Source: Pseudomonas tructae
GTDB taxonomy: Bacteria > Pseudomonadota > Gammaproteobacteria > Pseudomonadales > Pseudomonadaceae
Assembly: GCF_004214895.1 (NCBI RefSeq)
Contig: NZ_CP035952.1
Span: 3,172,501-3,236,500, forward strand
DNA length: 64,000 nucleotides
Reading direction: 5' to 3'
Shown: positions 4,557-22,881 of the stretch, one piece after another
Layout: the number at the start of each line of letters is the position of its first letter
Numbering within the stretch: the first letter of the stretch is position 1
The notes under the pieces: generated by a model
What the model was told of the DNA's origin: nothing
What the model saw: only the letters and a program-made list of their open reading frames with translations
Databases searched by the model: none
Translations under genes and position numbers: made by a program

Positions 4557-5072
4557 TTGAACATCCGCCTAGCCCGCCCTGAAGATGCGCCCCTGCTCCC
4601 GACCGTCGAGCGTTCGGCAGCGCAAGCCTTCCTCCGTCATCCTGGCCTTGAGTGGATTGCCCGTGGCCCGGTCATGAGCCTTGAGGATCATTTGGGCTTC
4701 ATCGAAGCGGGGCATGAATGGTTGCTGACTGACGAACACGACCCGCCCCAGGGGTTTATCTGCGCCACGCCGGCGGGCACAGACCTGTTCATTCATGAGC
4801 TGTCGGTTGCACAGGCGCTCCAGGGCCAGGGACAGGGTCGCCGACTCATCGCCACAGTCCGCCAGTGGGCAAGCGATCAGGGCTTTCAGGGCTTGACCCT
4901 GACCACCTTTGTGCAGGTACCGTGGAATGCGCCTTTCTATGCGCGCCTGGGTTTTGAGCTGCTCACTGAAACACAGCTCAGCCAAGCCCTGAGCCAACAG
5001 CTCAGGCGCGAACAACTGCAGTTCAAGAGCACCCGCTGCGCCATGCGCCTGAACCTTCAGCCGTTGTCCTGA
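4557..5072 (+). CDS. GNAT family N-acetyltransferase
   Basis: 171-residue acyl-CoA-dependent N-acetyltransferase. The acetyl-CoA loop is seen as the Q-G-Q-G-Q-G-R run (LQGQGQGRRLIATV, near residue 95), after the LFIHELSV strand. The C-terminal NAPFYARLGFELL is the usual GNAT beta-5/alpha-4 region. The start is TTG at 4557; no stronger ATG lies in frame upstream. The substrate is unknown. Its last 16 bases overlap the 3' end of the convergent KfrA-like gene. The 220 bases between this gene and the adhesin start hold the promoter regions of both. Confidence 0.85.
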   Translation: MNIRLARPEDAPLLPTVERSAAQAFLRHPGLEWIARGPVMSLEDHLGFIEAGHEWLLTDEHDPPQGFICATPAGTDLFIHELSVAQALQGQGQGRRLIATVRQWASDQGFQGLTLTTFVQVPWNAPFYARLGFELLTETQLSQALSQQLRREQLQFKSTRCAMRLNLQPLS

Positions 5073-6028
5073 GCCTGGGCGCTGGCGCGTTCTGCCTGAC
5101 GCAAAAGCGCTTCCTGTTTGCCGATCAGTTGCAACTGACGACGCAGCTCCGACACCCGCTCAGCCAGGCTCAGGGCCAGGTCCTTGTTCTGTTTTTCCAG
5201 CTCGTCCCGTGAGCCCGCCAGCTGTGCAAGCCTCACCTCCAGGCCGTGAATCTGCGCCTGCTGGCGTTCGTTCTGGGTCTTGTTGCTGCGCTGGGCATCC
5301 TTGAGGGTGCGGATTTGCACCAGCAGCCCCTCGTTATCGCGGTTCAGGCGGGTCAGTTCGTCCTGTTTGACGATCAGGGTCTGTTGCAACTGACGCACCT
5401 CCACCTGCAACTGCTGAACCTGGGATTCATGGCGACGCTGCTCCTGGTCACGCTGTTCGCGGCTGGCCGTGCGGTAATGCTCGAGCGCATCGCGTGCATG
5501 CCGGTGCTTTTCTTCCAGGGACTGGATCTGCTCGTCCTTGTCGGCCAGGCGCAGGTTCAACTCCCCTACCGCCTGGTTGAGCGTGGCGTTGCGTGTCTGT
5601 TCACTCTGCAAGGTGCTGCGGGTAGTCGCCAGCGCCTCTGATTCGCTGGCCAGTGCGGCAGCCTGGATTTCATGCTGCTGTTGCAGCGCGGCCAGGGCTT
5701 GCTGACTGAGCTGGACCTGGGCCAGCAGCGTCTGGCGCTGTTGCTCGAATGCCTCGCGGGCGTGCTCGATCCGCGCCTCACCCTCCTCCTGCAATTGCGC
5801 AGCCAGCTGCTCGACCAATACCGCCAAGGTATCACTGAGGTTGACGGCGGTTGCGGGCACGGCTGAGTGCTGGCTTTCCAGCTCTTTCAAGTAACGGTGG
5901 ATGGTGGTTTTCGAGCCGGTATTGCCCAGTTCGATACGTACCGCATCGATGCTCGGGTGCTCGCCCCGTGCCAGCAGCGCCTGCCGCGCCTTTTGCACGA
6001 CTGCCTTGTTGATGCCACCACGGGCCAT
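5057..6028 (-). CDS. KfrA-type N-terminal DNA-binding, coiled-coil protein
   Basis: 323 residues. Residues 1-110 fit the KfrA N-terminal DNA-binding domain (VQKARQALLARGEHPSIDAVRIELGN, then TGSKTTIHRYLKELE, a helix-turn-helix). The remainder is one long Gln/Glu/Leu-rich coiled coil. KfrA proteins of plasmids bind operators and form filament-like oligomers; chromosomal homologues are poorly characterised. It is transcribed away from the tyrosine recombinase at 6207, with a 178-base AT-rich shared promoter region that carries two palindromes. That arrangement suggests it controls itself and the recombinase (inference). RBS GGAGG precedes ATG 6028. Confidence 0.85.
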   Translation of the reverse strand: MARGGINKAVVQKARQALLARGEHPSIDAVRIELGNTGSKTTIHRYLKELESQHSAVPATAVNLSDTLAVLVEQLAAQLQEEGEARIEHAREAFEQQRQTLLAQVQLSQQALAALQQQHEIQAAALASESEALATTRSTLQSEQTRNATLNQAVGELNLRLADKDEQIQSLEEKHRHARDALEHYRTASREQRDQEQRRHESQVQQLQVEVRQLQQTLIVKQDELTRLNRDNEGLLVQIRTLKDAQRSNKTQNERQQAQIHGLEVRLAQLAGSRDELEKQNKDLALSLAERVSELRRQLQLIGKQEALLRQAERASAQAQDNG

Positions 6029-6063
6029 GCTGCCTCCTACGATTTCGTACTGTGATACGTACC

Positions 6064-6119
6064 ATGTATTTACATACTATATTAAGTGACCCATATGCGC
6101 TTGATAAATGCATTCATCA
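6064..6119. promoter_or_regulatory. Palindromes between kfrA-like gene and recombinase
   Basis: The AT-rich divergent promoter region holds two inverted repeats: ATGTA-TT-TACAT at 6064-6075, and TGATAAATGCATTCATCA at 6102-6119, a near-perfect 18-bp palindrome with one mismatched pair. Their position between divergent genes, one of them a DNA-binding protein, makes them candidate operators. No binding is demonstrated. Confidence 0.4.
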
Positions 6120-6206
6120 GATAAAATAATCACGGCTTATCGCATGTTAAGGGCTAAAATGCCGCGTTAAAGTGCCAAGTGCGGTACGTTTGGCGAGTGA
6201 GGGGCA

Positions 6207-7163
6207 ATGAACACGATCGAGCGCTATCTGCAGGCTGCCACCCGGGACAACACCCGGCGTAGCTATCAAGCAGCGGTGGAACATTTCGAAGTGAGCTGGG
6301 GCGGCTTTCTTCCGGCCACGGCAGACAGCGTCGCCCGTTACCTGGTCGACCACGCTGCCACTCACTCGGTCAACACCCTCAAGCAGCGCCTGGCCGCGCT
6401 GGGACAATGGCATGTCAGCCAGGGTTTTCCCGACCCGACCAAGGCGCCGGTGGTACGCCAGGTGCTCAAAGGCATTCGTACCCTGCACCCCAGTGAGCCC
6501 AGGCAGGCTGCTCCGCTGCTATTGCAACACCTGCAAACGGCAATCGCTGTACTTGAAGGTGAAGCCGCACACGCCCGCAGCCAACACGACCTGCCTGCGC
6601 TATTGCGCGCCAGTCGCGATAAGGCGCTGCTGTTGATCGGTTTCTGGCGTGGCTTTCGCGGTGACGAACTGGCGCGCTTGCAGGTCGAGCATATCCAGGC
6701 GCAGGCCGGGGTCGGAATGTCGATCTTCCTGCCGCGTAGCAAAGGCGATCGGCAGGCGCTGGGCGTGCGCCATCGGGCACCGGCATTGAAGGTGCTGTGC
6801 CCGGTACAGGCTTATCTGCAATGGCTTGAAGTCGCCGGCATCGCCCACGGCCCGGTGTTTAGAAAGCTCGACCGCTGGGGCAACCTCGGCGAGCAGGCGC
6901 TCAACAGCAACAGCTTGATCGGCCTGCTGCGGCGCCTCCTCGAACGCTGCGGTGTGCCCGCGGCCTTATATACCGGCCACTCGTTGCGTCGCGGCTTCGC
7001 CACCTGGGCCACCAGCAACGGCTGGGAGCTCAAGGCCTTGATGGGTTACGTGGGCTGGAAAGATGCCAAGTCGGCGCTGCGTTACATCGATGCCGCAGTG
7101 TCTTTTGGTGAGCTGGCCGTGCTGGACACAGGGCCGACATCGACCCTGCCCAGCCTGCCTTAA
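6207..7163 (+). CDS. Tyrosine recombinase / site-specific integrase
   Basis: 318 residues with the XerC/D-type two-domain layout. The N-terminal SAM-like core-binding domain is at residues 1-110 (TIERYLQAATRDNTRRSYQAAVEHF). The catalytic domain shows the first Arg in GFWRGFRGDELARL, the H-x-x-R box in TGHSLRRGFATWA, and the nucleophile Tyr in SALRYIDA near the C-terminus. All key residues are present, so it should be active. RBS GAGGGGCA precedes ATG 6207. No phage genes, att repeats or tRNA lie next to it, so it is not an obvious prophage integrase. Its stop overlaps the stop of the convergent thioesterase by 4 bases (7160-7163). Confidence 0.9.
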   Translation: MNTIERYLQAATRDNTRRSYQAAVEHFEVSWGGFLPATADSVARYLVDHAATHSVNTLKQRLAALGQWHVSQGFPDPTKAPVVRQVLKGIRTLHPSEPRQAAPLLLQHLQTAIAVLEGEAAHARSQHDLPALLRASRDKALLLIGFWRGFRGDELARLQVEHIQAQAGVGMSIFLPRSKGDRQALGVRHRAPALKVLCPVQAYLQWLEVAGIAHGPVFRKLDRWGNLGEQALNSNSLIGLLRRLLERCGVPAALYTGHSLRRGFATWATSNGWELKALMGYVGWKDAKSALRYIDAAVSFGELAVLDTGPTSTLPSLP

Positions 7164-7798
7164 CCTGCCAAGGTAGGCCATGCCAGCGCTGGGCTTTGCA
7201 TGACCAGCGCTGCCAGACACGGATCGTTGATGACTGAGGCATGGCTGGTGCCGGGCGCAACGTGGTAGCGATGGCATGCAGCGCGATGCAGTCCCAGCTC
7301 CTGGGCCAGTTCGCTGACGCTGCTCTGTGCTGACAGCAACACGTCGACCGGCACAATCGGCAGCGGTTGGCGCGGCAAGTGCGCGAGCATCTGAATGTTG
7401 CCCAGCACGCAGTCGCGTTCCACCAACTGGGCATCAACCAGGTCATCGATGTAGGCATATTGCGGGTCGGTTGCCAGGCGCTGGGCGATGCTCTGCAGGC
7501 TGTACCCCTGAACGCTGGCAACCGCAGGTGGATCAACCAGGCACAGACGCCGTGCCGCGCCCTGTTGTGACACACAACAGGCAGCCACCCGGGCACCAAA
7601 TGAGTAGCCGAGTACCAGATCCATGGCCGCGAGGTCATGGTCGTCAGTAATCCGTTCGGCCAGCACCTCGATGCGCGGATAGGGCCAGTAATCGCTGTAG
7701 TTGAGTGTCGTCAGCAGCGCCCTGCCCTTTAGTTGACGCGCCAGCGCAGAGAAACAGATGGGATGGCCGACAAAGTCGGGGAAACAGATCAGCTTCAT
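7160..7798 (-). CDS. Alpha/beta-hydrolase thioesterase of NRPS cluster
   Basis: 212-residue alpha/beta hydrolase resembling stand-alone type II thioesterases of NRPS systems. The N-terminus MKLICFPDFVGHP gives the first strand and oxyanion loop. The nucleophile Ser66 lies in GYSFGA, the acid is probably in LVDPPA, and the catalytic His is in GTSHAS near the C-terminus. It starts at ATG 7798, whose ATGA overlaps the stop of the condensation protein, so translation is coupled; a longer upstream start is less likely. As last gene of the operon it would release the product or clear misprimed carrier domains (inference). It is somewhat shorter than the usual 240 residues. Confidence 0.8.
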   Translation of the reverse strand: MKLICFPDFVGHPICFSALARQLKGRALLTTLNYSDYWPYPRIEVLAERITDDHDLAAMDLVLGYSFGARVAACCVSQQGAARRLCLVDPPAVASVQGYSLQSIAQRLATDPQYAYIDDLVDAQLVERDCVLGNIQMLAHLPRQPLPIVPVDVLLSAQSSVSELAQELGLHRAACHRYHVAPGTSHASVINDPCLAALVMQSPALAWPTLAG

Positions 7799-9081
7799 AG
7801 CTGCTTTACTCCCGCGACAAAGCACGCCAGGAATGACTCGGCCAGCGCCGCCGGCAAATAGCTATTGAGCAACACCTCGTGGCCCAGCGCAGACTTGATC
7901 AATGTCAGGTCAAGCAGGGTCTTGGGCTTCTCAGTCACCGGGTTGGCAATGTAACGCTGCAGCCATGCCGCATCCTGACTCGTCAGTGCAACCAGATTGA
8001 ACAGAAACGACGGGGTGAAATCGTACAATTGCAACGCGCCGAGAATCTCCTCATAACCGAGCAGGGCTTGGGCAAGCGTGGTATTGAGTTGTGCCACCTG
8101 TTGCTGCAGGTGGCTGTCCGTGGGCTCCAGGGCAATCGGCACGGTATAGGTGGAAAATCCGCTGGTGACGCTGCTATCGGCCCAGTCAACCAGCACATTG
8201 ACGATGGCCGCCTGGATTCCCAGGGCAGCGGCGCAGCTTTGCCGGTACACCTGCAGGAGCTGCGCAAGCCGCTGTGGCCCCTCCAGTGCCAAGCTATCGA
8301 CCGCCAGTGGCGCGCGCAACTGCAGTGCCTTGGCGTTGGCGGGTAGTGCGGGTAGCCGTGCCAGCCGGGTATAGCGGTGACTTTGCGCTTCCCAGTCGGC
8401 ACTGCAAGCGTCGACCTGGCGCTCGTACTCATCGGCCAGCATCAGGTTGTTGCTGACAAAGCTGAAGTCGGCAGGCTGTCCTGTGCCTGGCAGTTGCTGG
8501 GCAAGTTGCTGGACACTGCGCAACACGTTGAACTGACCGACATGATTGCCAAGAATGTGATGCAAACAGGCCCCCAGGTGCAACGTCTCACCAATACGCA
8601 CTTTGAACAGGTAGAACAGATCGTCTTTGAACAGTGAGAGCGGCTGCTGCAGGAAGTGTTCGACACAATCCTCCAGACTCTGGAAGGTGGGCACGTCAGT
8701 CAGCAGCAAGGTTGCAGGCGGCAACGGGTCAAGATCGAACGCATACTCGCCCTGTACCTGCACAACGCGACAGGCAATCAATGGATGAAAGCGCTTGAGT
8801 TGCTGGGCTAGCGATGCCAGGTCCACTGACGCTGCGGCCACCTGCTCGGGGTTGAACAGGTACACCACGTTGTTGGCAGTGAGATGCTTGCCCAACAGTT
8901 GCGCATACACCATCGACAACTGGCTTTTGTTCAATTCCACTGTGTGTTGGTCGTCGCTATCGTCAAGCCTGCCCGCAGTTGCCCACAGCCGTTGCCGGGC
9001 TTGCTGCTCAGAGGTGGCGCGCAGCACGGCAAAGCGCCCCAGATGAGTCTTGATCGAAAACACCTCGGATGGCTCAGACAT
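7795..9081 (-). CDS. Stand-alone NRPS condensation-domain-like protein
   Basis: 428 residues, one condensation-superfamily domain without attached A or PCP. The active-site motif HHxxxDG reads HHILGNH (H174-H180): both His are kept but Asp is Asn and Gly is His. The region around GFSTYTVPIAL matches the second half of the fold (floor-loop/latch area). The first 50 residues (FSIKTHLGRFAVL) are not part of the usual domain and were not recognised. It starts at ATG 9081, overlapping the upstream NRPS gene by 8 bases. It probably joins, esterifies or transfers the aminoacyl groups loaded on the two A-PCP proteins. The altered Asp leaves activity uncertain. Confidence 0.75.
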   Translation of the reverse strand: MSEPSEVFSIKTHLGRFAVLRATSEQQARQRLWATAGRLDDSDDQHTVELNKSQLSMVYAQLLGKHLTANNVVYLFNPEQVAAASVDLASLAQQLKRFHPLIACRVVQVQGEYAFDLDPLPPATLLLTDVPTFQSLEDCVEHFLQQPLSLFKDDLFYLFKVRIGETLHLGACLHHILGNHVGQFNVLRSVQQLAQQLPGTGQPADFSFVSNNLMLADEYERQVDACSADWEAQSHRYTRLARLPALPANAKALQLRAPLAVDSLALEGPQRLAQLLQVYRQSCAAALGIQAAIVNVLVDWADSSVTSGFSTYTVPIALEPTDSHLQQQVAQLNTTLAQALLGYEEILGALQLYDFTPSFLFNLVALTSQDAAWLQRYIANPVTEKPKTLLDLTLIKSALGHEVLLNSYLPAALAESFLACFVAGVKQL

Positions 9082-10837
9082 TGATCGCCTCCTGCTCCAG
9101 TGCAATCACGTAATAGCGCTCGACACTTGCCTGCCGCCATGCACCCAACCCCGGCTGACTGTCCAGCACAGCCAGCAGTTCACCCAACGTGGCCAACTGG
9201 TAGAACTGCGCAAGGCTCAGCCACTCCCAACCCAGCTGCTGGTTAACCCTGCCGATCAACTTGATCGCCGCCAGCGAGTTGCCACCGTTGTCGAAAAAGC
9301 TGGCCGCCAGATTCCGGCTGTGCAGGCCAAAGCTCGCCAGAAAGTCCGAGCCCGAATCGCCCGCCCGGTCGCTGGTGCCGCGCACGTGCTGTTGCAGGGC
9401 GTGGGTATCGAGCTTGCCTGAGACGCGCAGGGGAAACCGCTCGATCGCAACAAAGCGCTGAGGGACCATGAACGGCGGCAAATGAGTCCGGCCATAATCG
9501 GCCAGGTCCGCTGGCGAAATTGCCGACCTACGCAGATAAACCAGCACCAAGTGTTCCACGCCGCCCGGATCATCCAGCACAACGGCACAGTCGAGCATGC
9601 CCGGATATTGCTTGAAGGCCGCAGTGATTTCGCTCAGGGATATTCGCTGGCCACGCAGCTTGATCTGGTCGTCGCGACGCCCGTGAAAGCGATAAAGGCC
9701 ATCGCTGTCGCAAGACACCAGGTCGCCGCTGCGATAGCAACGCAGCCGAGTGCCCTGCCAGTCCAGTTCGATGAACTTGTCCCGTGTCTGCGCCGCATCG
9801 CCCAGGTACCCCGGGGACAAACCAGCACCAGCGATCAACAGTTCGCCAGGCTCATCCTCAGCACAGGCACTGCCATCGTCACGCACCACCAATAAGATGG
9901 CGTCTGCCACCGCATGGCCGATAGGAATGTCGCGGTGGTCGTCGAAGGTTCGAGGAATGGCGTAAACACAGGTGCCCATGGTGTTTTCCGTAGGCCCGTA
10001 ACCGTTGTAGATCGTCATTTCCCAGGTTGCGTCATACGCCTGACGAATGTGCGCAGGTGACAATGTCTCGCCGCCGACCATCAAGCGCTTTACCCCTTGC
10101 AGGCATTGCGCGTCGATGTCTATGAAAGTGTTGAACAGCGTCGAGGTCAACCACAAGCTGTCGACCTGCCCTGCCCTGACGTAGCGCTGCAAGGCGCTGA
10201 ACGTCAGTGGCCCGGGTGGATGAATGCACAGTTGCCCGCCATTGAGCAGGCTGGTCCAGATCTCGAACTGCGACGCATCGAAGGTCAGGTTCGAGGCATA
10301 GAGCATGCCAAAGCCCGGGGTCAGCGCGAAGTGCTGCGGCCGATCACAAAAGCCAAGCACGCCCTGATGGGTGCAGGGGATGATTTTCGGCGCACCGGTG
10401 GTGCCGCTGGAGAAGTTCACATACACCGCTTCCTCGCCACTCAAGGCCGGCCAGTGCGACGGCAGCGGCGCCGGCGCGAGCAGGTCGGCGAGCAGCAGGT
10501 TTGCCGAAGGTACTTCGCTGACGGTCCAGTCGATGCCACTGCGCGAGACGATCGCCGCATTCCACTGCGCCGGGTTGCCTGGGTCCAGATAGCAGTACGA
10601 CAAGCCCGCCCGCACCATCCCGACGATCAGCACCACCTGCTCGATCGAGCGCTGCACATCAAAGGCCAGCGTGGTGCCCGGTGCCAGGCCCAAGCCAAGC
10701 AAATGCGCTGCCACAACCGCCGAACACTCCTGCAACTGGGCATAGCTGATTGTCTGCCCATTGCAGCTCAGGGCAATGTCGTGCGCATGGCGGGCAAATA
10801 TTTGCTCCAGGCGCTCAGGTATTGATACACACGTCAT
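9074..10837 (-). CDS. NRPS adenylation-PCP didomain
   Basis: 587 residues. The A domain covers about 1-485 with core A3 FSSGTTGAPK (142-151), A4 FDASQFEIW, A5 NGYGPTENT, A7 YRSGD and A10 VSGKLD (catalytic Lys). The PCP follows, with the phosphopantetheine Ser521 in FFDNGGNSLAAI. The ten-residue specificity code, aligned by eye to GrsA, reads D-A-F-W-M-G-G-M-G-K, close in its first half to hydrophobic (Val-type) pockets. This is only a hint at substrate. There is no condensation domain; the next gene supplies one in trans. The start ATG 10837 lies 4 bases after the upstream stop. Confidence 0.9.
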   Translation of the reverse strand: MTCVSIPERLEQIFARHAHDIALSCNGQTISYAQLQECSAVVAAHLLGLGLAPGTTLAFDVQRSIEQVVLIVGMVRAGLSYCYLDPGNPAQWNAAIVSRSGIDWTVSEVPSANLLLADLLAPAPLPSHWPALSGEEAVYVNFSSGTTGAPKIIPCTHQGVLGFCDRPQHFALTPGFGMLYASNLTFDASQFEIWTSLLNGGQLCIHPPGPLTFSALQRYVRAGQVDSLWLTSTLFNTFIDIDAQCLQGVKRLMVGGETLSPAHIRQAYDATWEMTIYNGYGPTENTMGTCVYAIPRTFDDHRDIPIGHAVADAILLVVRDDGSACAEDEPGELLIAGAGLSPGYLGDAAQTRDKFIELDWQGTRLRCYRSGDLVSCDSDGLYRFHGRRDDQIKLRGQRISLSEITAAFKQYPGMLDCAVVLDDPGGVEHLVLVYLRRSAISPADLADYGRTHLPPFMVPQRFVAIERFPLRVSGKLDTHALQQHVRGTSDRAGDSGSDFLASFGLHSRNLAASFFDNGGNSLAAIKLIGRVNQQLGWEWLSLAQFYQLATLGELLAVLDSQPGLGAWRQASVERYYVIALEQEAINV

Positions 10838-10841
10838 GCCG

Positions 10842-11852
10842 TCAACCTTCCTGGTGATTGATCAGTTGAATGCCCGGGGCAAAGAAGGCCGCCGAGTTGT
10901 AGCGGAGCAACGCTTGGGTAACAGGCTGCTGCTCGCGTCGCAGGCAGTCCAGCCACACTTGGCTGTGCACCAGATCGTCCAGGCAGCGTGCAATGTTGTG
11001 ATCGACCGTTGATTCACCCGGCACACTGAGCAGGCTCTTGCGTCCATGGTGGTAGTCGTCATCGCGGTAGCCTGTGCCACAGCGCGATGCATTGACGATA
11101 TCGACATTGCCCAACTGCGGGGACAGTTCAAGGGACAGGCTGACGCGCCCGACATTGACCAGCCGCGAACGGCCGCGACCCTTGCCCTGCGGGTTGAGCA
11201 GGCTGATCAATCGCGGCAGCAGCGCTGTGATGTCGGCGTCAATACACAGGAATATCGTGCTAAAGCGCCCACTCAGCGCCTGCAGGTCACCCTGCAGATC
11301 AAGGGTACGGAGCGGCAGGCCGGTCTCGATGGCGTGCGGGTTGAGATCAGCCGCCCAGACCTGAACCTTGCGCCGCGCGGCCACCAGGCTCAGCAACTTG
11401 CCGACCGGTCCCATGCCAACCACCAGAATCTGCTCGCCCTCCTCCAACTGGCCACGGTCAGCGGCATGTACCGCTGTGGCGCCAAGGGTGGCGAGTACTG
11501 CCTGGTCCAGGCTGAGTGCGTCCGGCACCCGGCAGACCAGCCGCTGCGGTACGTTGATCCAGTTGGAGTGGGTGGCGATGTTCCAGCCCATGGCCACCAC
11601 CCGGTCGCCGGGGGTGAACTGATCGACCTGCGCACCCACCCCGCTGACAACGCCCGCAGCACAGTAACCGAGCGGCAGTTGCTCACCGCTCTGGGCAACC
11701 TGGCGAATGTAGTGTCGCTCGGTGCCCGGGCTGACCAGCGTGTAGTCTACGGCCACTTGCACCTCAGTCGGTGCGGGCGCGCCCAGCGACGCCTGCAAGC
11801 GTTGCACACCGTCAGCACCGCAGGCGGTGAGGGTGTATCGAAGTCTGCTCAT
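10842..11852 (-). CDS. MDR-superfamily (zinc alcohol dehydrogenase-like) oxidoreductase
   Basis: 336 residues with a GroES-like N-terminal half (VSPGTERHYIRQ, LGYCAAGVV, FTPGDRVVAMGW) and a Rossmann NAD(P)-binding half with VVGMGPVGKL. It belongs with COG1063-type dehydrogenases of the SPGTE subgroup. The Cys/His ligands of classical catalytic zinc were not recognisable, so zinc dependence is doubtful. The chosen start ATG 11852 forms an ATGA overlap with the EPSPS-like gene. In the pathway it would oxidise or reduce a hydroxyl/keto group on the intermediate before or after transamination (inference). Confidence 0.8.
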   Translation of the reverse strand: MSRLRYTLTACGADGVQRLQASLGAPAPTEVQVAVDYTLVSPGTERHYIRQVAQSGEQLPLGYCAAGVVSGVGAQVDQFTPGDRVVAMGWNIATHSNWINVPQRLVCRVPDALSLDQAVLATLGATAVHAADRGQLEEGEQILVVGMGPVGKLLSLVAARRKVQVWAADLNPHAIETGLPLRTLDLQGDLQALSGRFSTIFLCIDADITALLPRLISLLNPQGKGRGRSRLVNVGRVSLSLELSPQLGNVDIVNASRCGTGYRDDDYHHGRKSLLSVPGESTVDHNIARCLDDLVHSQVWLDCLRREQQPVTQALLRYNSAAFFAPGIQLINHQEG

Positions 11853-13195
11853 AAGCCACTGCGTCCTGTGAGGGTGTCCAGGCATTCGGCAAAGCCCGGG
11901 AATGAGGTCGTGTAGCAATGCCCTTCAAGAACGGTGCCCTGTAACCCATGGGCCAGCAGCAATACGTGAGCAGTCATCGACAGTCGATGGTCACCGAAGG
12001 TTGGCACGGCCTTGGGCGCATGGGGGACTTGTGCGCCGTCTACACGAACGTCATAGCCGTGTACCTGATAGTCCAGCCCGAAGGCATTGAGCGTACGGCG
12101 GGTCGCCTCGATGCGATCGGACTCCTTGAAGGTCAGTTCGTAAAGGTCGGTGAAGGTCGCCTGGCCTGGCAACAGGCAGGCGATCGCCAAGGCCAGTGGC
12201 ACTTCGTCGATCATCGCGTGAAACAGGTCCTTGTCACGCAGGTCGTGAGCCCTGGGTTCACCGCCGCCTTCAAGGATCAGCCGACCGATCGGTTCGCCAT
12301 GACGCACGCTGTCCACCACCACGGTCAGCTTGAAGCCGCACAGGCCAAGCCAGGTGAAAAAGCCCTGCCGTGTGGGGTTCAGGCAGACGTTGTCGAAGGT
12401 CAACTGCTGCTGCGCGCGGCCCCGGTTACACAGCAGGAACAGCGCAGCCGGATAGGCAATCGCCGAGGGGTCTTGTGGAATGCAAATCTCCTCGGGCACC
12501 GTGCACTGGCGTGGCTGATATTCGATGTGGTGATGGCGTTCGAGCAGGCTGTCGCCAAAGCTGTTGACGATTCGCTGGGTGTGATCCCGAGACACCACCG
12601 GGTAGCTGATCGACAGGGCCTTGCGGGCCGCTACACCGGCAAACAGCAAGGTGCTGATGGCCTGGGCACTGCCGATGCGGATCAAGGCATGGCCACCGTT
12701 GAATTGCGCCTTGTTGATGCGCACCGGCAGCGAGCCGGGCGTGCCCAGGTAGCGCAGGTCAGCGCCCATCTGATTCAACGGCTCGACGATCCAGTCGAAG
12801 GGGCGATTGCGCAGGGTTTCATCGCCATCGACGATGCACGGCACATTCAAGCCTACCAGCATGCCAATCAGCATCCGTGCAGCGGCGCTCGAAGGGCCCA
12901 GGTCAACCACTGTCTCGTGGGTATCAGCAGCGAAGTCGCCGCTGATACTCACGCAGTCGCGGGTCTCTTCCTGCTTCACCTGCAAACCCAGTTGTTGCAA
13001 GGCATCCAGCAATAGCGTCACGGCTTTGCCACGGTTGAGCGAGCGCAACTTGACCGGGTGCGCCGCCAGTGCCGCGAACAGAATCATCCGGTGGCTGATG
13101 GATTTGTCCGAAGGCAGGCGCTCATCGACATTCACCCAGACCTGATGTTCGCCATCGAGTTTGAAATCTATCTGTCGGTCCGGGTAATCGATCAT
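11849..13195 (-). CDS. Divergent EPSP-synthase (enolpyruvyl transferase) homologue
   Basis: 448 residues spanning the whole EPSP synthase fold. Conserved: PSDKSISHR (K31, R36), GDETLRNRPF, SRDHT (203-206), MIDE (D330), KESDRI (E358), GDHRLSM and TSFPGF. Changed: the LGNSGTAMR loop is LGPSSAAAR (99-107), the SAQxKS box is SAQAIS (176-181) without Lys, and the early acidic DD patch is NRGK. PEP-site residues therefore look partly kept while the shikimate-3-phosphate side is rebuilt. Housekeeping AroA of Pseudomonas is normally fused to TyrA, so this is a specialised paralogue. EPSPS relatives are thought to take part in shikimate-derived ring pathways such as cyclohexanecarboxylate formation (recalled). 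It starts at ATG 13195 with an ATGA overlap. Confidence 0.85.
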   Translation of the reverse strand: MIDYPDRQIDFKLDGEHQVWVNVDERLPSDKSISHRMILFAALAAHPVKLRSLNRGKAVTLLLDALQQLGLQVKQEETRDCVSISGDFAADTHETVVDLGPSSAAARMLIGMLVGLNVPCIVDGDETLRNRPFDWIVEPLNQMGADLRYLGTPGSLPVRINKAQFNGGHALIRIGSAQAISTLLFAGVAARKALSISYPVVSRDHTQRIVNSFGDSLLERHHHIEYQPRQCTVPEEICIPQDPSAIAYPAALFLLCNRGRAQQQLTFDNVCLNPTRQGFFTWLGLCGFKLTVVVDSVRHGEPIGRLILEGGGEPRAHDLRDKDLFHAMIDEVPLALAIACLLPGQATFTDLYELTFKESDRIEATRRTLNAFGLDYQVHGYDVRVDGAQVPHAPKAVPTFGDHRLSMTAHVLLLAHGLQGTVLEGHCYTTSFPGFAECLDTLTGRSGL

Positions 13196-14409
13196 TGTGC
13201 ACTCCTGTAGTTGGCGGGGTTGATCAGTTCGGCGTCATCCACTAACGCCATCTCGTCGAAAAGGTCACCGATGCCTGGGCCGGCGGGCAGCACCAGATCT
13301 TGCGTCTCGTAGAAACGCCGACGGTTTTTCTTGCGCTCAAGGCCAAGGTTGAAACCGCTCAGGTCAATCGCCCAGGTTTCCAGGCGACCATGGGCAATCG
13401 CTCTGTCAACCAGTAACTGGCCCATGTCGGTACGCACCAGCGCACGGCCATGCTTCTTTTCTTGCGAGCCGTTGAGGCTGGCTTCGAAGATATTCGGGTC
13501 ACCATCACAGACGCTGACGTCCGCCAGGCCGCTCATCCAGTCGCCGCAGCTCAGGCAGCGAAAAGTCTTGTTGTCCTTGAGCTTGCCGAGGATTTCCCAG
13601 AAATCGATGCCCAAGGTCTGGTTGTCGATCAGCGTTACCTGCAAGCGTCCGGGGTACTCGCCTTCGCGGTACTTGATATCCGTGACCTGCTGTGGGTCCT
13701 GGGCCAGCACATCACTGATGATGCTGCGGGTACCGGCCGGCAAGGTGTTGGACGAACAGGCGGTTTCAATCACACAGACAATCTGGCTTTTCGCCCAGCG
13801 GCCAATGGCCGTGTCCCGACGCTGCAGCTTGCGGATAGCCTGCACATGGCACGCCAGGCCAACCAAGGCGATACGCGCCTGAGGCGTTTGCTCGAAGCAC
13901 TCGCGCAAGGCATTGAGGTACGGCGCCAGTTGATAGGTGGACTGGGCGTTGTTGATAATCGCTTGCTCAGCACCATCCACTTGCGCAGCACTGCGCCAGC
14001 CTTGCTGTGCATGGCGGCCCATGGTCAACGTCAGGTCCACGCCCAAATGCGCCCGCGCAGTCAGCAGCAAGGTGGTTGCGGTACCGCCGCTGGCCGAACG
14101 CCGAACGATGTGCGCGTCGGTCGAGCGTGCGCCGATTGCCACCCGATTGATCCCCAGCCAGCGCTCCTGGGCGGTGCGCGTGCGGCCAAACAGTTCCTGT
14201 TCGGCGCGGTCCGTGTCTGGCTGCAGCCCTGGGCAGACTGCCAGACATTCACCGCAGGGCTCGCACTGATCACCCGCAAGGTCCAGCACCGGCGTGACCG
14301 TGTCGGGGTCGAAGCTGATCAACTGCTCCGGACAGACCAGGGCGCAAGCACCGCAGCCTGCGCAAAGGTTCTGGTCAAGAACGGTGAGTTTCAACAACAT
14401 CCCTGTCAT
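13192..14409 (-). CDS. FrhB-type iron-sulfur flavoprotein reductase
   Basis: 405 residues of the coenzyme F420 hydrogenase/dehydrogenase beta-subunit family. An N-terminal bacterial ferredoxin domain holds two [4Fe-4S] Cys sets: C16, C19, C22, C26 and C49, C52, C55, C59. The FrhB-type N and C domains follow, with extra Cys in IETACSS and FRCLSCGDWM. Family members include ferredoxin-dependent double-bond reductases such as the BciB vinyl reductase. Pseudomonas is not known to make F420, so ferredoxin/flavin chemistry is more likely. ATG 14409 is preferred over an in-frame TTG at 14424 because of the GAGG spacing. Its stop overlaps the EPSPS-like start. It may reduce a C=C bond created by that enzyme (inference). 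Confidence 0.8.
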   Translation of the reverse strand: MTGMLLKLTVLDQNLCAGCGACALVCPEQLISFDPDTVTPVLDLAGDQCEPCGECLAVCPGLQPDTDRAEQELFGRTRTAQERWLGINRVAIGARSTDAHIVRRSASGGTATTLLLTARAHLGVDLTLTMGRHAQQGWRSAAQVDGAEQAIINNAQSTYQLAPYLNALRECFEQTPQARIALVGLACHVQAIRKLQRRDTAIGRWAKSQIVCVIETACSSNTLPAGTRSIISDVLAQDPQQVTDIKYREGEYPGRLQVTLIDNQTLGIDFWEILGKLKDNKTFRCLSCGDWMSGLADVSVCDGDPNIFEASLNGSQEKKHGRALVRTDMGQLLVDRAIAHGRLETWAIDLSGFNLGLERKKNRRRFYETQDLVLPAGPGIGDLFDEMALVDDAELINPANYRSAQ

Positions 14410-14514
14410 TTTCAGTAACCTCAAGTGCCGATTTTCGGGTGCAGGAAGCCACGCCCTCGAAAAGACTCAAGGGCGGCGACTAAAACGATGTGTTGTCAGT
14501 AAGCAGCTGTCAGT

Positions 14515-14982
14515 TCAAAGGCTGCGCTGCATTTTTACGATCTCCAGCGAGACCGGGCTGCTCCCTCGGCTGAAGGTGCCTTCGCCGATTTTCTGAAAAC
14601 CATGCCGGGCGTAAAAGAGCTCGGCCGTGAGGGTGGCTTCCAGGTAGGCCATTTGCGCACCGCCATTGCGCAGGTGTTCGATAGCCACCTCAAGCAATCG
14701 GCTGCCGATACCGCGGCGGGCGCCGTCACCGCAAATGAACAGCTTGCTGATCTCGTTGCCCTCGACCTCGACGAAACCCTGAATCGAATCGGTCTCGGCC
14801 AGCCACAGCAAGCCCTTGTCAATTGCTTCACGGTAGGTCTGCGGTGAGCGCCCGTCGAGCCACATGCTGATCTGCTCGGGGCTGTAATCCTGGGTGCAAA
14901 GGCGCTCCACCGAGTTGCGATGGGCGTTGAAAATGCCATTGGCGTCGTCCGCAGTGGCCAAGCGAATCTGCAGGTCGTTCAT
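14515..14982 (-). CDS. GNAT family N-acetyltransferase in NRPS cluster
   Basis: 155-residue GNAT enzyme. The CoA loop is GARRGIGSRLLEVAIEHL, preceded by the SKLFICGD strand; ELFYARHGFQKIGEG is the typical end. Its ATG at 14982 directly follows the stop of the EamA gene (TGAATG), so translation is coupled. It may acetylate the product or an intermediate, for example as self-protection alongside the exporter (inference). A 105-base gap downstream, with a weak CGCCCT/AGGGCG inverted repeat at 14452-14475, is the largest break inside the operon. Confidence 0.8.
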   Translation of the reverse strand: MNDLQIRLATADDANGIFNAHRNSVERLCTQDYSPEQISMWLDGRSPQTYREAIDKGLLWLAETDSIQGFVEVEGNEISKLFICGDGARRGIGSRLLEVAIEHLRNGGAQMAYLEATLTAELFYARHGFQKIGEGTFSRGSSPVSLEIVKMQRSL

Positions 14983-15915
14983 TCAGGAAAACTCCAGTTT
15001 CTTCAGTCCAGGGTTGTATCGACATTTGAAGTTGATCAGGCTGCCAAGCATTACCAGCGCACTGCCGATCATCATGTGCAGGCCCAAGGGCGTTTCGCCC
15101 AGCCACACCGACAGGTAACTTGCGCCGATCGGATACAGCACGCCGACATAGCCGGCGTTCTCTGCCCCTACCCGCTTGATCAGGTCAATGAACAGCACGA
15201 ACACCAGTGCTGAACAGATCACCCCCAGATACAACAGGATGCTGGCATCGGCCAGGGTCGAAGGCAGTTGCAGGCCCTTGCCGGTCAGCAGCAGGCTGAG
15301 TGCGTAGAGGGCACAGGCCCAGCCGGCAGCCACCTTGTTGATGTGCAAGGTGCCCAGGCCATGGCTGCGCTGAATGTGCTCCGAGAGCACCGAGCCAAGG
15401 GCCACGCCAAGAAACGACGTCAGGGCCAGCACGGTGCCGGGCAGGGACAAGGGCCGAGCATCGTCGCCGAGCATGAACAGCCCCAGGCCAAGCAGGCTCA
15501 CCAGGCCGCCAACCAGGCTGTGTATGGCAACCGGCGCGTTGAACAGCAGGCGCTTGAGGCCGATGATGTAGAAAATCACCAACGCACTCAGGCACGCCAT
15601 CTGTGCACTGCCCATATAAGCGGTGGCCAGGTAGGCCAGGCCGATACCTGCATAAAAATACACCGCCCCCACGGTGGCCATCTGCAGGTAAGCGCTACGC
15701 GTCACCTTGGCCTGCACGGTGCCAAACAACCGCTGCCACAGCCACAACACCAGGTAGGCAATAAAAAACCGCAGCATCAGCGAAGAGCCGATGTCGGAGC
15801 GCTCTACCTGTAGCGAGATGGCGATCCAGTTGGTCGACCAGATCATCAGGCAACCGACGAACATCAGCGGTGCGATCAGTGAACGGGGTTTCTTGTTGTT
15901 GTGATCAGCGTTCAT
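14983..15915 (-). CDS. EamA/DMT family transporter, probable exporter
   Basis: 310 residues with about ten hydrophobic segments arranged as two EamA repeats. It starts MFVGCLMIWSTNWIAI after a short polar N-terminus. The second repeat begins near VLALTSFLGVALGSVL and ends LYPIGASYLSVWLGE. RBS GGAGTAGAG precedes ATG 15915. Drug/metabolite transporters of this type export amino acids and small metabolites. Placed between the NRPS gene (9 bases upstream) and the acetyltransferase, it most likely exports the cluster product. Confidence 0.85.
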   Translation of the reverse strand: MNADHNNKKPRSLIAPLMFVGCLMIWSTNWIAISLQVERSDIGSSLMLRFFIAYLVLWLWQRLFGTVQAKVTRSAYLQMATVGAVYFYAGIGLAYLATAYMGSAQMACLSALVIFYIIGLKRLLFNAPVAIHSLVGGLVSLLGLGLFMLGDDARPLSLPGTVLALTSFLGVALGSVLSEHIQRSHGLGTLHINKVAAGWACALYALSLLLTGKGLQLPSTLADASILLYLGVICSALVFVLFIDLIKRVGAENAGYVGVLYPIGASYLSVWLGETPLGLHMMIGSALVMLGSLINFKCRYNPGLKKLEFS

Positions 15916-15924
15916 GGTTGTTCT

Positions 15925-18795
15925 CTACTCCAAGGTTGCTCTGATCCTGTCGAGCACAGTGTCCAGGTCCTGGCGGGCGTATCGGTCGGGGTCATAGTCG
16001 ACTTTGAGCAGCAACTGGCCATCGACCAGGTAGCCGGTGAACTCCAGATGGTGACTGGGGCTGCCGTGCAGCAACTGCACACTCAGCGGGTGGACATTGA
16101 CCCGGCTACCGATGTGGCTCTGCAGTGCGCCAAGAAAGTTGTAGCTGTAGTCGCAGTCAAGATCGCCCGTCAGACGCTCGGCCCGGGGAGTGCCGAAGTA
16201 CTGGTTGCCGAAACTGTGGGCAAAGCCTTGTGTTGCCTGCTGATAGGCCTTGATCCGCTCGGCCAGTGCATACAGCTCTACCCCGCCAACCTGCTGCACC
16301 ATCGGGTAGATCAGGGTCAACCAGCCAAACACGCTGTTGAGATCGGCACCTTGCTTGTCCAAGGCGCGGCCATGATCGAGCAGGTGGACTTTCTGTACAG
16401 GCTTGTCATCGTGCTCGCTCATCGCCCCGAGAATTGCAGCCAGCAGCAGGTTACTGATCTCGGCCATTCCCTGTGCCGAGGCTGGCAGGCGCGAAATCGC
16501 CCCCAGCGACAGCTCGGCACGGACAAACGCTTCGCGACGTGGGAACGCTACACCGCGATGACTCGACGTAGCACACTGCTGCCAGGGCAAGGCTTGCCAG
16601 AAGTCGGTGTTGCGCACCTCGGCGTGCAACGCTTGGTAGCTTTGCAGCCACTCGTCAAAGCGCAAGGCCCGATGCCATTGGGTGATGCAGTGCAGGCCCT
16701 GGCTCAGGCATTCGTCGAGCTCGGCAACCAGCAGCATCCACGAATAACGGTCTACCTCGAACTGATGACAAGCGATGATCAACTGGTGGCTGTCGACCTG
16801 TTGTAGCTGGCTGAAACAGACGCGCTGTTGATTGCTCAAGGAAATGGCAGCGCACGTTTGGCTAACGGCCTGCGCAAGGTCGGTCGATGCGCCCAACTGA
16901 CCCAAGTCGTGTACGCCCTGCTCGATCGCATGATGGCCAAGCACCGCGCGCAGCGCCTGGCTTACGGCTTGAGCAGGCAAATCGCCGCTGATGTTCAGGA
17001 CAATTGCCTGACTCCAGTGGTCCAAATCGCTGATGCCCCGGCTTTGCAGGAAACGCCGGTTGGGCAAGCTGGCCTCACTTGCAGCCTGTCGCTTGCCACG
17101 GGCTTTGTTCACTGCCGGCTGCACCTGCAATTGCTCAAGAGCACCGTCTGAAAGCAAGGCCTCCAGATCCAGCAATAGGCCCTTGCGCTTTAGTGCAGCA
17201 ACCACCTGTAACGCCCGTAGCGAATCACCACCGTTGTCGATAAAACTCAGCGTCGGATCAGGCTGATGCCCACCGAGCACCTGAACAATTGCCTGCCATA
17301 ACGGCTCAGCCTGACCCGCGTCGAGAGGTTGCTCGGCCATGCCGGCGGCAATCTCGGCCAATGCCTGACGGTCGATCTTGTTGTTCCTGTTCAGCGCAAA
17401 GCGCTTCAGCAACAGGAACCGCGCCGGAACCTGCTGGGCCGGGAGTTGCGCCTTGGCCGCCTGACGCACAACGCTTTCGTCAATCTCTGGGGCGCTGGCG
17501 ATGACAAAGGCGACCAACGCTGTGTTGCCCTGAACCTGAGTGGCGATCACGCAGACTTCCTGCACCTGGCTCAGGCGCTTGAGCTGGGACTCTACGTGCA
17601 CCAAACTGACTTTCTGGCCGTTGATCTTGACGATAGAGTCTTTGCGCCCAAGCAGGCGAATCGCGCCGTCCGGCTCGCGGCAGGCCAGGTCGCCGGTCAG
17701 GTAGCACTGGCGCTGCGGATCAAGCGGGCTGGGCTGGGTAAGCGCAACGATCTGGCCGCTGGTACTGTCCAGGCGCCGAGCTACCCACGGCGAGTAAAGC
17801 AACAATTCACCGACGCCTTCGCCGTAAGGCTGCTGCGGCTCGAAGGTTACTGCCACCTCGACACCGTCAACCGGACTGTCCAAGGCCCAGGTTACCGAAC
17901 GTAGCTGTTCGCCCTGATTGATACGGGCGTGCAAAGCGGTGGTGCACTCAGTAGGCCCATAAGCGTTGAACAGTTGTGAACCCACTGCAAAACACTGGTT
18001 GAAACGTTCGATGTCCGAGCGATGAATGATCTCGCCGCCAATCACCAATTGCTTGGCAGCGGTATACGCAGTTGAGGCCGGACTGTAGAACGCGCGCAGG
18101 TACGGCACGGTCATGTGCAGCACATCAAGATCATGGGCAACAATCATTGCGTCGATGGCTGCGAAATCCATCTCCCGCGGGTTGAGGCTGCACAGCGTTG
18201 CGCCGGTCTTGAGGCTGGCAAAGATATCCATCAGGCCTGCGTCCCAACCCGCCGATGCCAATTGCAGCAAGCGATTGCGGGCTGAGATGCCGACGTATGC
18301 CACATAGTTGTCGATATGCTGGTTCAGCGCGTCGATACGCTGGACGATGGCCTTGGCCTCGCCGGTCGAGCCGCTGGTGAAGATGACATAGTCTTCACAA
18401 CACAGTTGCAGCGACTCACCAGTTGGCACCGGAGCAGGCTCGAACAGTCCCAGGTCGATCACCGCAAGATCGGTGGCCAAGTTTTGGCCCGACTGTACCG
18501 AACCGTTGAGGATCACGCTGACACCCAGCGACTTGAGCGTGGCCTGCAGGCTTGCCAAATCACTGGCAGGATCGATGAACACCAATCGTTTAGCACTGGC
18601 CAAACCGGCAACCAGCGCGGCATACATGAGGTGCCCGTGGCTGGCATAGAGCACCACCGCACCCCGTCCAGTCCGGGTGATTTCGGCGCTGAGTGCCGCC
18701 CGCAACCGCTCGATTGATGCAAACGAGTGGCTACCACTGGAATCAATTACGCCAACCACATCAGAACCCGCAGCGCGAACATAGGCCTGCAACAT
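15925..18795 (-). CDS. NRPS A-PCP-epimerisation-like trimodule
   Basis: 956 residues. The A domain (about 1-485) has A3 IFTSGSTGEAK (138-148), A5 NAYGPTECT, A7 YLTGDL and A10 NRNNKID. The code by eye is D-A-M-H-V-G-A-T-A-K, which matches no substrate I know. The PCP has Ser525 in FIDNGGDSLRAL. Residues about 580-956 are an epimerisation-type condensation domain (VFGWLTLIYPM, DYSYNFLGAL). Its HHxxxDG motif reads HQFEVDR (677-683) and the EGHGR motif reads LDHGR (806-810), so the second His and the Glu used by epimerases are both missing. There is no N-terminal C domain, so it is a starter-like module. RBS AGGAAAGGGA; 24 bases after the aminotransferase. Confidence 0.9.
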   Translation of the reverse strand: MLQAYVRAAGSDVVGVIDSSGSHSFASIERLRAALSAEITRTGRGAVVLYASHGHLMYAALVAGLASAKRLVFIDPASDLASLQATLKSLGVSVILNGSVQSGQNLATDLAVIDLGLFEPAPVPTGESLQLCCEDYVIFTSGSTGEAKAIVQRIDALNQHIDNYVAYVGISARNRLLQLASAGWDAGLMDIFASLKTGATLCSLNPREMDFAAIDAMIVAHDLDVLHMTVPYLRAFYSPASTAYTAAKQLVIGGEIIHRSDIERFNQCFAVGSQLFNAYGPTECTTALHARINQGEQLRSVTWALDSPVDGVEVAVTFEPQQPYGEGVGELLLYSPWVARRLDSTSGQIVALTQPSPLDPQRQCYLTGDLACREPDGAIRLLGRKDSIVKINGQKVSLVHVESQLKRLSQVQEVCVIATQVQGNTALVAFVIASAPEIDESVVRQAAKAQLPAQQVPARFLLLKRFALNRNNKIDRQALAEIAAGMAEQPLDAGQAEPLWQAIVQVLGGHQPDPTLSFIDNGGDSLRALQVVAALKRKGLLLDLEALLSDGALEQLQVQPAVNKARGKRQAASEASLPNRRFLQSRGISDLDHWSQAIVLNISGDLPAQAVSQALRAVLGHHAIEQGVHDLGQLGASTDLAQAVSQTCAAISLSNQQRVCFSQLQQVDSHQLIIACHQFEVDRYSWMLLVAELDECLSQGLHCITQWHRALRFDEWLQSYQALHAEVRNTDFWQALPWQQCATSSHRGVAFPRREAFVRAELSLGAISRLPASAQGMAEISNLLLAAILGAMSEHDDKPVQKVHLLDHGRALDKQGADLNSVFGWLTLIYPMVQQVGGVELYALAERIKAYQQATQGFAHSFGNQYFGTPRAERLTGDLDCDYSYNFLGALQSHIGSRVNVHPLSVQLLHGSPSHHLEFTGYLVDGQLLLKVDYDPDRYARQDLDTVLDRIRATLE

Positions 18796-18819
18796 GATGT
18801 CCCTTTCCTGTTGTTGTTA

Positions 18820-20040
18820 TCAGAGGGCTTGGCAAACGCCTTGCAGCGTCTGCATGAATGCCTGGATTTCGCTTCCAGACATGACAATCGGTGGGGTCAG
18901 CTTGACCGTGTTCGAATTGCACCCTCCGGTGCGGACGATGACGCCGTGATCGAGCAGGCCATTGCGCAGCGCCAGCACATCGCCGGCAAAATCGAAGGCG
19001 AGCATCAGCCCGCGGCCCCGCACATGGGTCACTCGCTCATCGTCCCGACCCAATTGTTCAAGTGCCTGGCGCAAGTGCGCGCCATTACTGGCCGCCAGTT
19101 GCCACGGTTGTTCCTGATCGAAGATATCCAGCACTTTCGAGGCTACCGCACAGACCAAAGGCATCAAGGTAAACGTCGAAGAATGCTCGGCGTAGCCCAG
19201 GCAATCGACCAGCTCGGTGCGTCCGACCACCGCCGAAATCGGCAAACCATTGCCCAGCGCCTTACCCAGCACCAACAGGTCGGGCAGTAGCGTCGGATCA
19301 CTGACAAACGGCTTACCGGTTCGCCCAAAACCGGTGTAGATCTCGTCGAATATGCTGACAACACCGAAGGTTCTGGCCAGCTCGACGATCGACTCCAGCA
19401 ATGGCCTTGGCACCGGATACATGCCTTCAGCCGCCTGAATCGGCTCGATGATCATCGCAGCTGGCAAACTGCCCGTCTGTTTGGCTTGGGTCAGGTAGGC
19501 AAACAACTGCTCATGCCATTGCGCGGCCCTGGCCGGGTCGTGTTCGGCCGCGTAGTCCAGGGCCAGCGCGCTGACCTGCAGGCCGCCAAGTGCCAGGTGT
19601 TTGCGAAAGTTGGGGTTGGAGGTAACCGACAGGGCCCCTTGGGTCTTGCCATGGAAGGCGTTGTCGAAGTACACAACGCCTTGCCGGCCGGTGGCGGCAC
19701 GGGCGATTTTCAGGGCGACTTCGATGGCTTCGGCACCGGTCACGGCGCCAAATACAGAGGCTTGAAGGTAAGGCACCAACCGTGCGAGTTTCGCCACCAT
19801 CTCGTGGCGATGCGGGTTGTCGATGTTCCAGCCGGTGTGCACCAACAGTTCGGCCTGGCGCTGGGTGACCTCGATCAGGTCATCGCGTTGATAACCAAGG
19901 TTGGCCGCCCCGCTACCACCGGACATATCGAGAAAGGCACGACCGTCTGCGTCGTAAAGAAAGCAGCCCTTGCCTCGAACGATCGAAGGGCTGCTGGGCG
20001 TGTTGCGTTTGACTGAAATCGAAAGCGCTTCTGTAAACAT
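18820..20040 (-). CDS. Class III PLP-dependent aminotransferase
   Basis: 406 residues, fold-type I PLP enzyme of the acetylornithine/4-aminobutyrate aminotransferase class. It shows GAVTGAEAIEVALKIAR (phosphate loop), FDNAFHGKTQG, the Asp in FDEIYTGFGRTG, and the Schiff-base Lys in VLGKALGNG. The motifs look intact. ATG 20040 with AAGG nine bases upstream is preferred to a TTG at 20049. It is first in the operon, so its amination is probably committed to the pathway: transfer of an amino group onto a keto or aldehyde precursor that one of the NRPS A domains then activates (inference). Confidence 0.88.
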   Translation of the reverse strand: MFTEALSISVKRNTPSSPSIVRGKGCFLYDADGRAFLDMSGGSGAANLGYQRDDLIEVTQRQAELLVHTGWNIDNPHRHEMVAKLARLVPYLQASVFGAVTGAEAIEVALKIARAATGRQGVVYFDNAFHGKTQGALSVTSNPNFRKHLALGGLQVSALALDYAAEHDPARAAQWHEQLFAYLTQAKQTGSLPAAMIIEPIQAAEGMYPVPRPLLESIVELARTFGVVSIFDEIYTGFGRTGKPFVSDPTLLPDLLVLGKALGNGLPISAVVGRTELVDCLGYAEHSSTFTLMPLVCAVASKVLDIFDQEQPWQLAASNGAHLRQALEQLGRDDERVTHVRGRGLMLAFDFAGDVLALRNGLLDHGVIVRTGGCNSNTVKLTPPIVMSGSEIQAFMQTLQGVCQAL

Positions 20041-20371
20041 CACTATCAACCTTGAGTGTCATGCCATTAACACGCACACATACTCAGGGCGAAATCGCTG
20101 ACGCGCAGTAAAACCGGGCGCTGCGAGGCTACCTTCCCTGGTATGCATCTTCCTTTTGCCAGGGTCGAAAACCCCTACCGGCAATATGGTTTTCAGTGAG
20201 CCATTAGCCGTTCACAACTGTCAACGTTCTGTGTAAATTTTATTTAACATAAGAAAAAACACCTGTTTCATACCGTAGAAACAGTTTAATTTCCTGAATT
20301 TGTGAGTAAAGCAATAGCAAAAAGACGCTAGCCTCCGTCATCCAGAGGCCATTATTTGAGTAAGGAATATC
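20041..20371 (-). promoter_or_regulatory. Upstream region of the NRPS operon with inverted repeat
   Basis: 331 bases with no gene. The part at about 20220-20330 is strongly AT-rich, unlike its surroundings, and should hold the promoter of the minus-strand biosynthetic operon. It contains a clean inverted repeat, CTGTTTC-8 nt-GAAACAG, at 20263-20284 (candidate operator), and a weaker CCCTGG/CCAGGG pair at 20136-20164 within the likely 5' leader. No cluster-linked regulator gene is present. Confidence 0.45.
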
Positions 20372-21505: not shown

Positions 21506-21619
21506 GGGGATTCTCCTGATCCAGATGACTGCATGCTGACAGCTGGCCCCAACGCAAGCCTTAGTCAGATGCACAAGCTGCAGCAACCTGGTTTGGGCGC
21601 TTGGCCAACCGTACGCATG

Positions 21620-22720: not shown

Positions 22721-22881
22721 GGGAGGATCCTTGTTTTCGCAATGATTGGTCCGGGGCACAGCCGTCCAGGAAAAATGCTGTGCAAAAGCACAAAGACAGC
22801 CACGGCCCGCTCACCGAGACTCATTGCAGCAGCCGCCTTGATGCAGGCTGCGGCGATAAACATAACAAAAGAGAGAGAATC

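Follow-up and report, generated by a model that had tools for sequence, protein, structure and literature searches.

The locus described here is an operon of ten genes in Pseudomonas tructae (contig NZ_CP035952.1), contained in a stretch of 64,000 nucleotides (positions 3,172,501 to 3,236,500; hereafter the window), and it may be set beside several described systems. Gabaculine, a natural amino-cyclohexadiene carboxylate, is a ring analogue of γ-aminobutyric acid (GABA) and is the type of monomer proposed below; no paper on a gabaculine gene cluster was found in the open-access literature. In the cyclohexanecarboxylate starter pathway of ansatrienin and asukamycin, a homologue of 5-enolpyruvylshikimate-3-phosphate (EPSP) synthase (EPSPS) has reportedly been proposed to dehydrate shikimate; amination and FrhB are not known from that pathway. 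EPSPS itself (AroA, class II type) shares with a protein of the operon the PF00275 fold family and the residues for catalysis and for binding shikimate 3-phosphate (S3P). The operon protein differs in having a G-x-SS-type loop in place of GNSGTT, in belonging to a clade of its own and in scoring below the TIGR01356 model, and the host carries another AroA-type gene. The FrhB/BciB/HCAR family presents the same Fer4, FrhB_N and FrhB_C architecture as a second operon protein; here, the context is a biosynthetic cluster and F420 synthesis is not expected in the host. BciB, a member of the FrhB family, is an FAD and iron-sulfur protein fed by reduced ferredoxin (PMC4836224). Lastly, in the aminoshikimate or 3-amino-5-hydroxybenzoic acid (AHBA) pathway of the ansamycins and mitomycins, a nitrogen-bearing shikimate-type C7 ring serves as building block, with nitrogen entering before ring formation via RifH/G/J/K-type enzymes (PMC8788734). 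The building block proposed for the operon would likewise be a nitrogen-bearing, shikimate-type C7 unit; none of the families identified in the ten operon proteins is of the RifG/H/J/K type.

The operon extends from 20049 to 7160 on the minus strand with gaps of at most 90 bp, four overlaps and all ten reading frames open, which bears out the ten co-directional genes of the original prediction. From these genes, a four-enzyme cassette (a class III aminotransferase or AT3, a ferredoxin-FrhB reductase, an EPSPS-like protein and an MDR-type dehydrogenase) and an activating protein are together predicted to yield a shikimate-derived ring amino acid that is aminated and partly deoxygenated, and that is likely coupled to an aliphatic amino acid. 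We hold this reading at somewhat less than even confidence. A search of titles and abstracts in the open-access literature returned no description of the gene set or of the four-gene cassette, and the earlier statement that no characterised Pseudomonas metabolite is known with this gene set is supported within that literature.

The evidence that carries this reading begins with the recurrence of the cassette. Alignment to FrhB and two exact peptide patterns matched 74 stretches, of which 33 were confirmed as loci; near relatives are counted separately and phyla are taken from record names. The EPSPS-like gene lies beside FrhB in 32 of the 33. All four cassette genes occur together in 28, within 4.7–9.4 kb and across five phyla: four Pseudomonas, two Agrobacterium, a Halothiobacillus, 15 actinobacterial and three cyanobacterial loci, a Flavobacterium, a Flavobacteriaceae genome and a Syntrophobacterales metagenome-assembled genome (MAG). 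As a correction to the original prediction, the genes are not peculiar to Pseudomonas. The five loci without the full core are a 3.8-kb contig (L022) and four from Paenibacillus that have only FrhB and an EPSPS variant. The latter (L028, L030, L031 and L032; about 10.0–12.6 kb) lack AT3 and MDR and present a third EPSPS-like type with the loop GNTATSAR and Asp at the position equivalent to Glu341, constituting a second FrhB-EPSPS partnership. Protein matches at 50–55% identity in Burkholderia, Bradyrhizobium, Brenneria and Herbaspirillum suggest further carriers of the cassette.

What accompanies the core varies. Genes for adenylation (A) domains lie beside it in 24 of the 28 loci, and two of the four lacking them are truncated stretches (L011 and L026). 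An assembly line of adenylation-peptidyl carrier proteins (A-PCP), condensation (C) protein and thioesterase (TE) is found in the window and in six other loci (L001–L005 and L033). In 14 loci a family of large proteins follows the core; the only one read, in L013, is a polyketide synthase of ketosynthase, acyltransferase, ketoreductase and acyl carrier protein domains. Luciferase-like monooxygenases are present in L013 and L010, and the Syntrophobacterales locus (L023) has creatininase-like and PhzF-like genes inside the core (11208–11996 and 14477–15469). Separately, a Breoghania protein (P0210) bears Pfam domains of both creatininase and FrhB on a single chain. The EamA and GNAT proteins of the operon cluster only with loci that hold the full operon. 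Given that the same core is combined with different assembly lines, it likely supplies a building block to each of them. The original prediction had proposed a logic of ring amination followed by activation; this fits, and the recurrence of the four enzymes with other assembly lines lends it new support. Pairwise distances among the core proteins and the A domain were also strongly correlated (r = 0.94–0.98), with none of 999 permutations as high (29 or 25 members, the window counted).

The EPSPS-like protein (11849–13195, minus strand; PF00275, 182.9 bits against a cut-off of 22.8) is as divergent as predicted. It falls below the NCBIfam equivalog TIGR01356 (225.8 against 287.25 bits) and is about 31–36% identical to canonical AroA among the matches listed. 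A set of 79 cassette sequences was compared with 70 canonical sequences (P0051–P0120). The cassette set consists of the window protein and those of the 28 core loci, for all of which the gene neighbourhood was read, together with hits P0001–P0050; loci and hits overlap in some proteins, so that the 79 are not independent events. In Escherichia coli numbering, the equivalents of the S3P-binding and catalytic residues K22, R27, R124, Q171, D313, E341 and R386 are at least 95% conserved in both sets, and the S3P positions K22/S23/R27, S-A-Q and Arg/His are conserved within the cassette clade. The loop that binds phosphoenolpyruvate (PEP), GPSSAAAR in the window, is changed. The Gly at position 96 is Ser in 79/79 cassette sequences and Gly in 69/70 canonical ones, and the equivalents of Asn94 and Thr97 are altered in 79/79 and 72/79 cassette sequences, respectively. 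In a tree made by a quick method, with several long branches flagged, 54 sampled cassette rows formed one clade (SH-aLRT 100) apart from 35 canonical and four Paenibacillus rows; 25 of the 50 cassette hits and 35 of the 70 canonical hits were used, and fused AroA proteins above 600 aa were cut to the first 470 residues. The host genome contains two further PF00275 genes, with lengths that fit MurA and a TyrA-AroA fusion (751-aa frame). We infer that the EPSPS-like enzyme binds S3P and no longer makes EPSP; on account of the changed PEP loop, its name is not meant to imply enolpyruvyl transfer.

Pfam domains confirm the identities predicted for the reductase and the aminotransferase. The reductase (13192–14424, minus strand) has Fer4 followed by the N- and C-terminal FrhB_FdhB domains (PF04422, 30.2 bits; PF04432, 79.1 bits); no other FrhB_C protein is encoded in the host genome. 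Its sequence matches the solved HCAR structure (5dqr) and enzymes of the F420 family, and it scores 73.8 bits against an frhB cut-off of 331.5. Twelve Cys residues are invariant in an alignment of 16 FrhB sequences and would suffice for three [4Fe-4S] clusters. Since CofD was not found in the host genome by a search that was positive in 10 of 14 genomes as a control, use of F420 by this enzyme appears unlikely. The AT3 (18820–20049, minus strand; PF00202, 275.5 bits) belongs to a family whose profile is nearest to GABA aminotransferases among solved structures. The MDR (10842–11918, minus strand; ADH_N, 24.6 bits) scores highest among NCBIfam models with BchC (45.3 of 291.25 bits), and its family profile matches sorbitol/polyol and alcohol dehydrogenases.

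The remaining genes encode an assembly line with two activating proteins and a release enzyme, in keeping with what had been predicted from their domains. The first A-PCP protein (15925–18795, minus strand; PF00501, 98.1 bits) is the cassette's own and the second lies at 9074–10837 on the same strand (PF00501, 180.8 bits; PF00550, 31.6 bits). Both have an AMP-binding domain, PF00550 is matched in one, and the carrier motifs GGDS and GGNS are seen in the sequence. Both had been described as free of condensation domains; the A-PCP composition is upheld for each, and the first also carries a C-terminal epimerase-like domain (Condensation, 36.8 bits; E-type motif). Compared with HHxxxDxxSW and FNYLG, this domain reads CHQFEVDRYSW and YNFLG, with the first His lost and the second kept. 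The substrate codes of the A domains (GrsA numbering) contain Asp235, His278 and Gly301 in 25/25 of the cassette-linked domains read, which points to the same class of substrate in all. The full code is DAMHVGATA in the window and in six loci from Pseudomonas and Agrobacterium, DSQHAGACA in 12/12 actinobacterial loci and DSQHIGATC in three cyanobacterial loci; other variants occur in L007, L013 and L025. Two A proteins that are not beside the core (L016 and L027) lacked the motif and were dropped. The second A domain has DAFWMGGMG, which is close to the Val code, in the window and in 6/6 orthologous loci. The tenth letter, K517, was appended to the codes and not read, its motif being visible in both window proteins. 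These codes fit one unusual acid and one aliphatic residue as the predicted monomers of the operon.

A free C domain had also been proposed. The protein in question (7795–9105, minus strand) has no Pfam match but does have a C-domain fold by structure, which supports the proposal. Profile-profile comparison against two C domains gave only a weak match (probability 2.9 over 40 columns, centred on the HH motif), and a single-sequence model reached no more than a pLDDT of 38. The TE (7160–7825, minus strand) has a GYSFG motif and matches PF00975 at 25.7 bits, below the cut-off of 26.4. An EamA-type exporter (14983–15915; PF00892, 69.4 bits) and a GNAT acetyltransferase (14515–14982; PF13673, 50.6 bits), both on the minus strand, complete the operon; for the GNAT protein, we infer self-protection or tailoring.

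Taken in order, the proposed pathway would begin with S3P drawn from primary metabolism. Having bound S3P, the EPSPS-like enzyme would, by virtue of the altered PEP loop, perform an elimination instead of an enolpyruvyl transfer. The ferredoxin-fed flavin enzyme FrhB would then reduce the conjugated or allylic system so formed and take off an oxygen, the MDR would convert one of the ring hydroxyls still present into a ketone, and the AT3, as a GABA-aminotransferase-like enzyme, would aminate this ketone. The outcome would be a carboxylic acid of the amino-cyclohexene type and thus an analogue of GABA in ring form. This ring acid would be loaded by the first A-PCP-E protein and a Val- or Leu-like residue by the second A-PCP protein, after which the C-fold protein would join the two and the TE would release the product, to be acetylated by the GNAT protein and exported by the EamA protein.

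Several observations weigh against this pathway. Foremost is Asp235, normally the mark of an α-amino acid, which is the main evidence against a γ-amino ring acid as substrate. The Arg and Lys positions that bind PEP are retained in the cassette sequences, and the EPSPS-like enzyme may still use PEP. NCBIfam ranks the window AT3 nearest to ArgD and not GABA-T, and the chemistry of FrhB and the MDR is not readable from sequence. The C protein lacks the HHxxxDG motif, with HHILGN in Pseudomonas and HHILGD in Agrobacterium vitis; HHILGN in place of HHxxxD makes peptide-bond formation uncertain. The correlation of distances is partly a matter of shared host ancestry. On the side of expression, the region between garK and the operon (20050–20371, minus strand) has two minus-strand terminator-like sites, and a sigma-70 scan of its coding strand did not find the operon promoter expected there; within the operon, promoter-like sites are at chance level (three found, 3.4 expected).

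Some of these same observations favour an alternative in which the EPSPS-like enzyme still transfers enolpyruvyl, and the monomer is a cyclohexenylalanine-type α-amino acid on a three-carbon side chain with its ring deoxygenated by FrhB. Asp235 in all 25 cassette A domains read, the retained PEP-binding Arg and Lys positions and an E-like domain that expects an epimerisable α carbon all agree with such a monomer. The loop, however, has Ser at the Gly96 equivalent and has lost the Asn94 equivalent in every one of the 79 sequences, no mutase-like gene is among the ten, and class III transaminases rarely produce such α-amino acids. We consider this alternative unlikely, if the best of those weighed. 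It is less probable still that the substrate of the cassette is not S3P but another ring acid, for example an unphosphorylated one or a different cyclohexene or cyclitol acid, with the same amino ring acid as the outcome. Apart from the EPSPS-like gene, no shikimate-pathway family was matched among the ten operon proteins, nor among nine flanking proteins taken from six further loci, which would suit such a substrate; the conservation of K22/S23/R27, S-A-Q and the Arg/His positions throughout the clade speaks for S3P.

The operon is mobile and is built around the widespread cassette. The full gene set, with its order kept, is found in Pseudomonas rubra (L001), P. protegens FD6 and 14B2 and Pseudomonas sp. 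PH1b (L002–L004), and two A. vitis strains (L005 and L033), and its surroundings vary between carriers. In L002–L004 the C protein is fused to the A-PCP protein, as judged by alignment for L002 and L004 and by length for L003. The operon of the window is flanked by a tyrosine recombinase (6207–7163, plus strand; PF00589, 43 bits) and glycerate kinase (garK). In a related Pseudomonas (G007, stretch L038), the recombinase adjoins the kinase and the block is absent; L038 1–2512 corresponds to window 4615–7126 and L038 2631–5000 to window 20397–22770, the two alignments being 118 bp apart. The recombinase at the 3′ edge is a resident, present also where the operon is not. In P. protegens FD6, the operon is located between queC/tRNA-Lys and nadA. 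In A. vitis CG118 (L005), it stands between two inverted IS240-type transposase genes that are 80% alike (3245–3976 and 17733–18464), a composite-transposon-like arrangement. The stretches fetched for CG118 and A. vitis NCPPB 3554 share only L005 4194–17324, which starts 75 bp ahead of AT3 and closes with the TE gene, and this segment, together with the empty site, indicates that the natural boundaries are those of the ten genes. No direct or inverted repeats of at least 10 bp were found at the operon edges (251 and 301 bases compared), and the G+C content of the operon is ordinary (0.603, compared with 0.607 in the remainder of the window). Six proteins tried against anti-phage models gave no match.

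Some further features of the surroundings may be recorded. Beside the operon of P. rubra, L001 13187–13435 matches only the last 83 codons (residues 236–318) of the window recombinase, and in G510, which has FrhB coordinates equal to those of L001, garK is on a different contig. A KfrA_N protein (window 5057–6028) is divergent from the recombinase, and both are kept at the empty site; KfrA_N proteins are usually plasmid-linked. Between 49000 and 60000, the G+C content of the window drops to about 0.52–0.54 at 50–55 kb and 57–60 kb, compared with about 0.61 elsewhere, a possible island.

The operon is rare in its genus. Of 298 Pseudomonas genomes sampled, three had FrhB, and the window's own is one of these; in a phylum sample, FrhB was present in one of 398 genomes, again the window's own, so no additional loci were gained. 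A tblastn search of a plasmid collection with the EPSPS-like protein matched 44 records, all below 60% identity and the 20 listed among them at 31% or less, and FrhB had no match in the collection at 1e-40. Such rarity within the genus, along with the lack of a promoter-like site upstream on the coding strand, might be taken to mean a silent or decaying island without a product in this strain. With all ten frames open and operon proteins 92–98% identical in P. rubra, we regard this as quite improbable. Least probable is that the EPSPS-like protein is a self-resistant copy of AroA guarding against a product that inhibits EPSP synthase: substitutions of Gly96 are the classic change in glyphosate tolerance and resistant target copies are often found in clusters, but the protein accompanies FrhB in 32 of 33 loci found by FrhB alone, changes in step with FrhB, MDR and AT3, forms a separate clade at about 31–36% identity to canonical AroA among the matches listed, and has lost the Asn94 equivalent in 79/79 and the Thr97 equivalent in 72/79 sequences.

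The shikimate-derived ring amino acid favoured here leads to a wider and more doubtful proposal, in which the five phyla would share a mobile sub-pathway of S3P elimination by a converted EPSPS, F420-free ring deoxygenation by FrhB and GABA-aminotransferase-like amination, yielding a gabaculine-like warhead placed in a dipeptide (Pseudomonas and Agrobacterium) or a polyketide (Streptomyces and Flavobacterium). If true, amination of an intact C7 ring after shikimate would differ as a route from the aminoshikimate pathway. With its invariant change of Gly to Ser, the PEP loop offers a sharp and testable example of how a primary-metabolic enzyme may acquire a new reaction. The cassette may also serve as a marker in searches for clusters that are predicted to share this building block, in Pseudomonas, Agrobacterium, Streptomyces, cyanobacteria and Bacteroidota.

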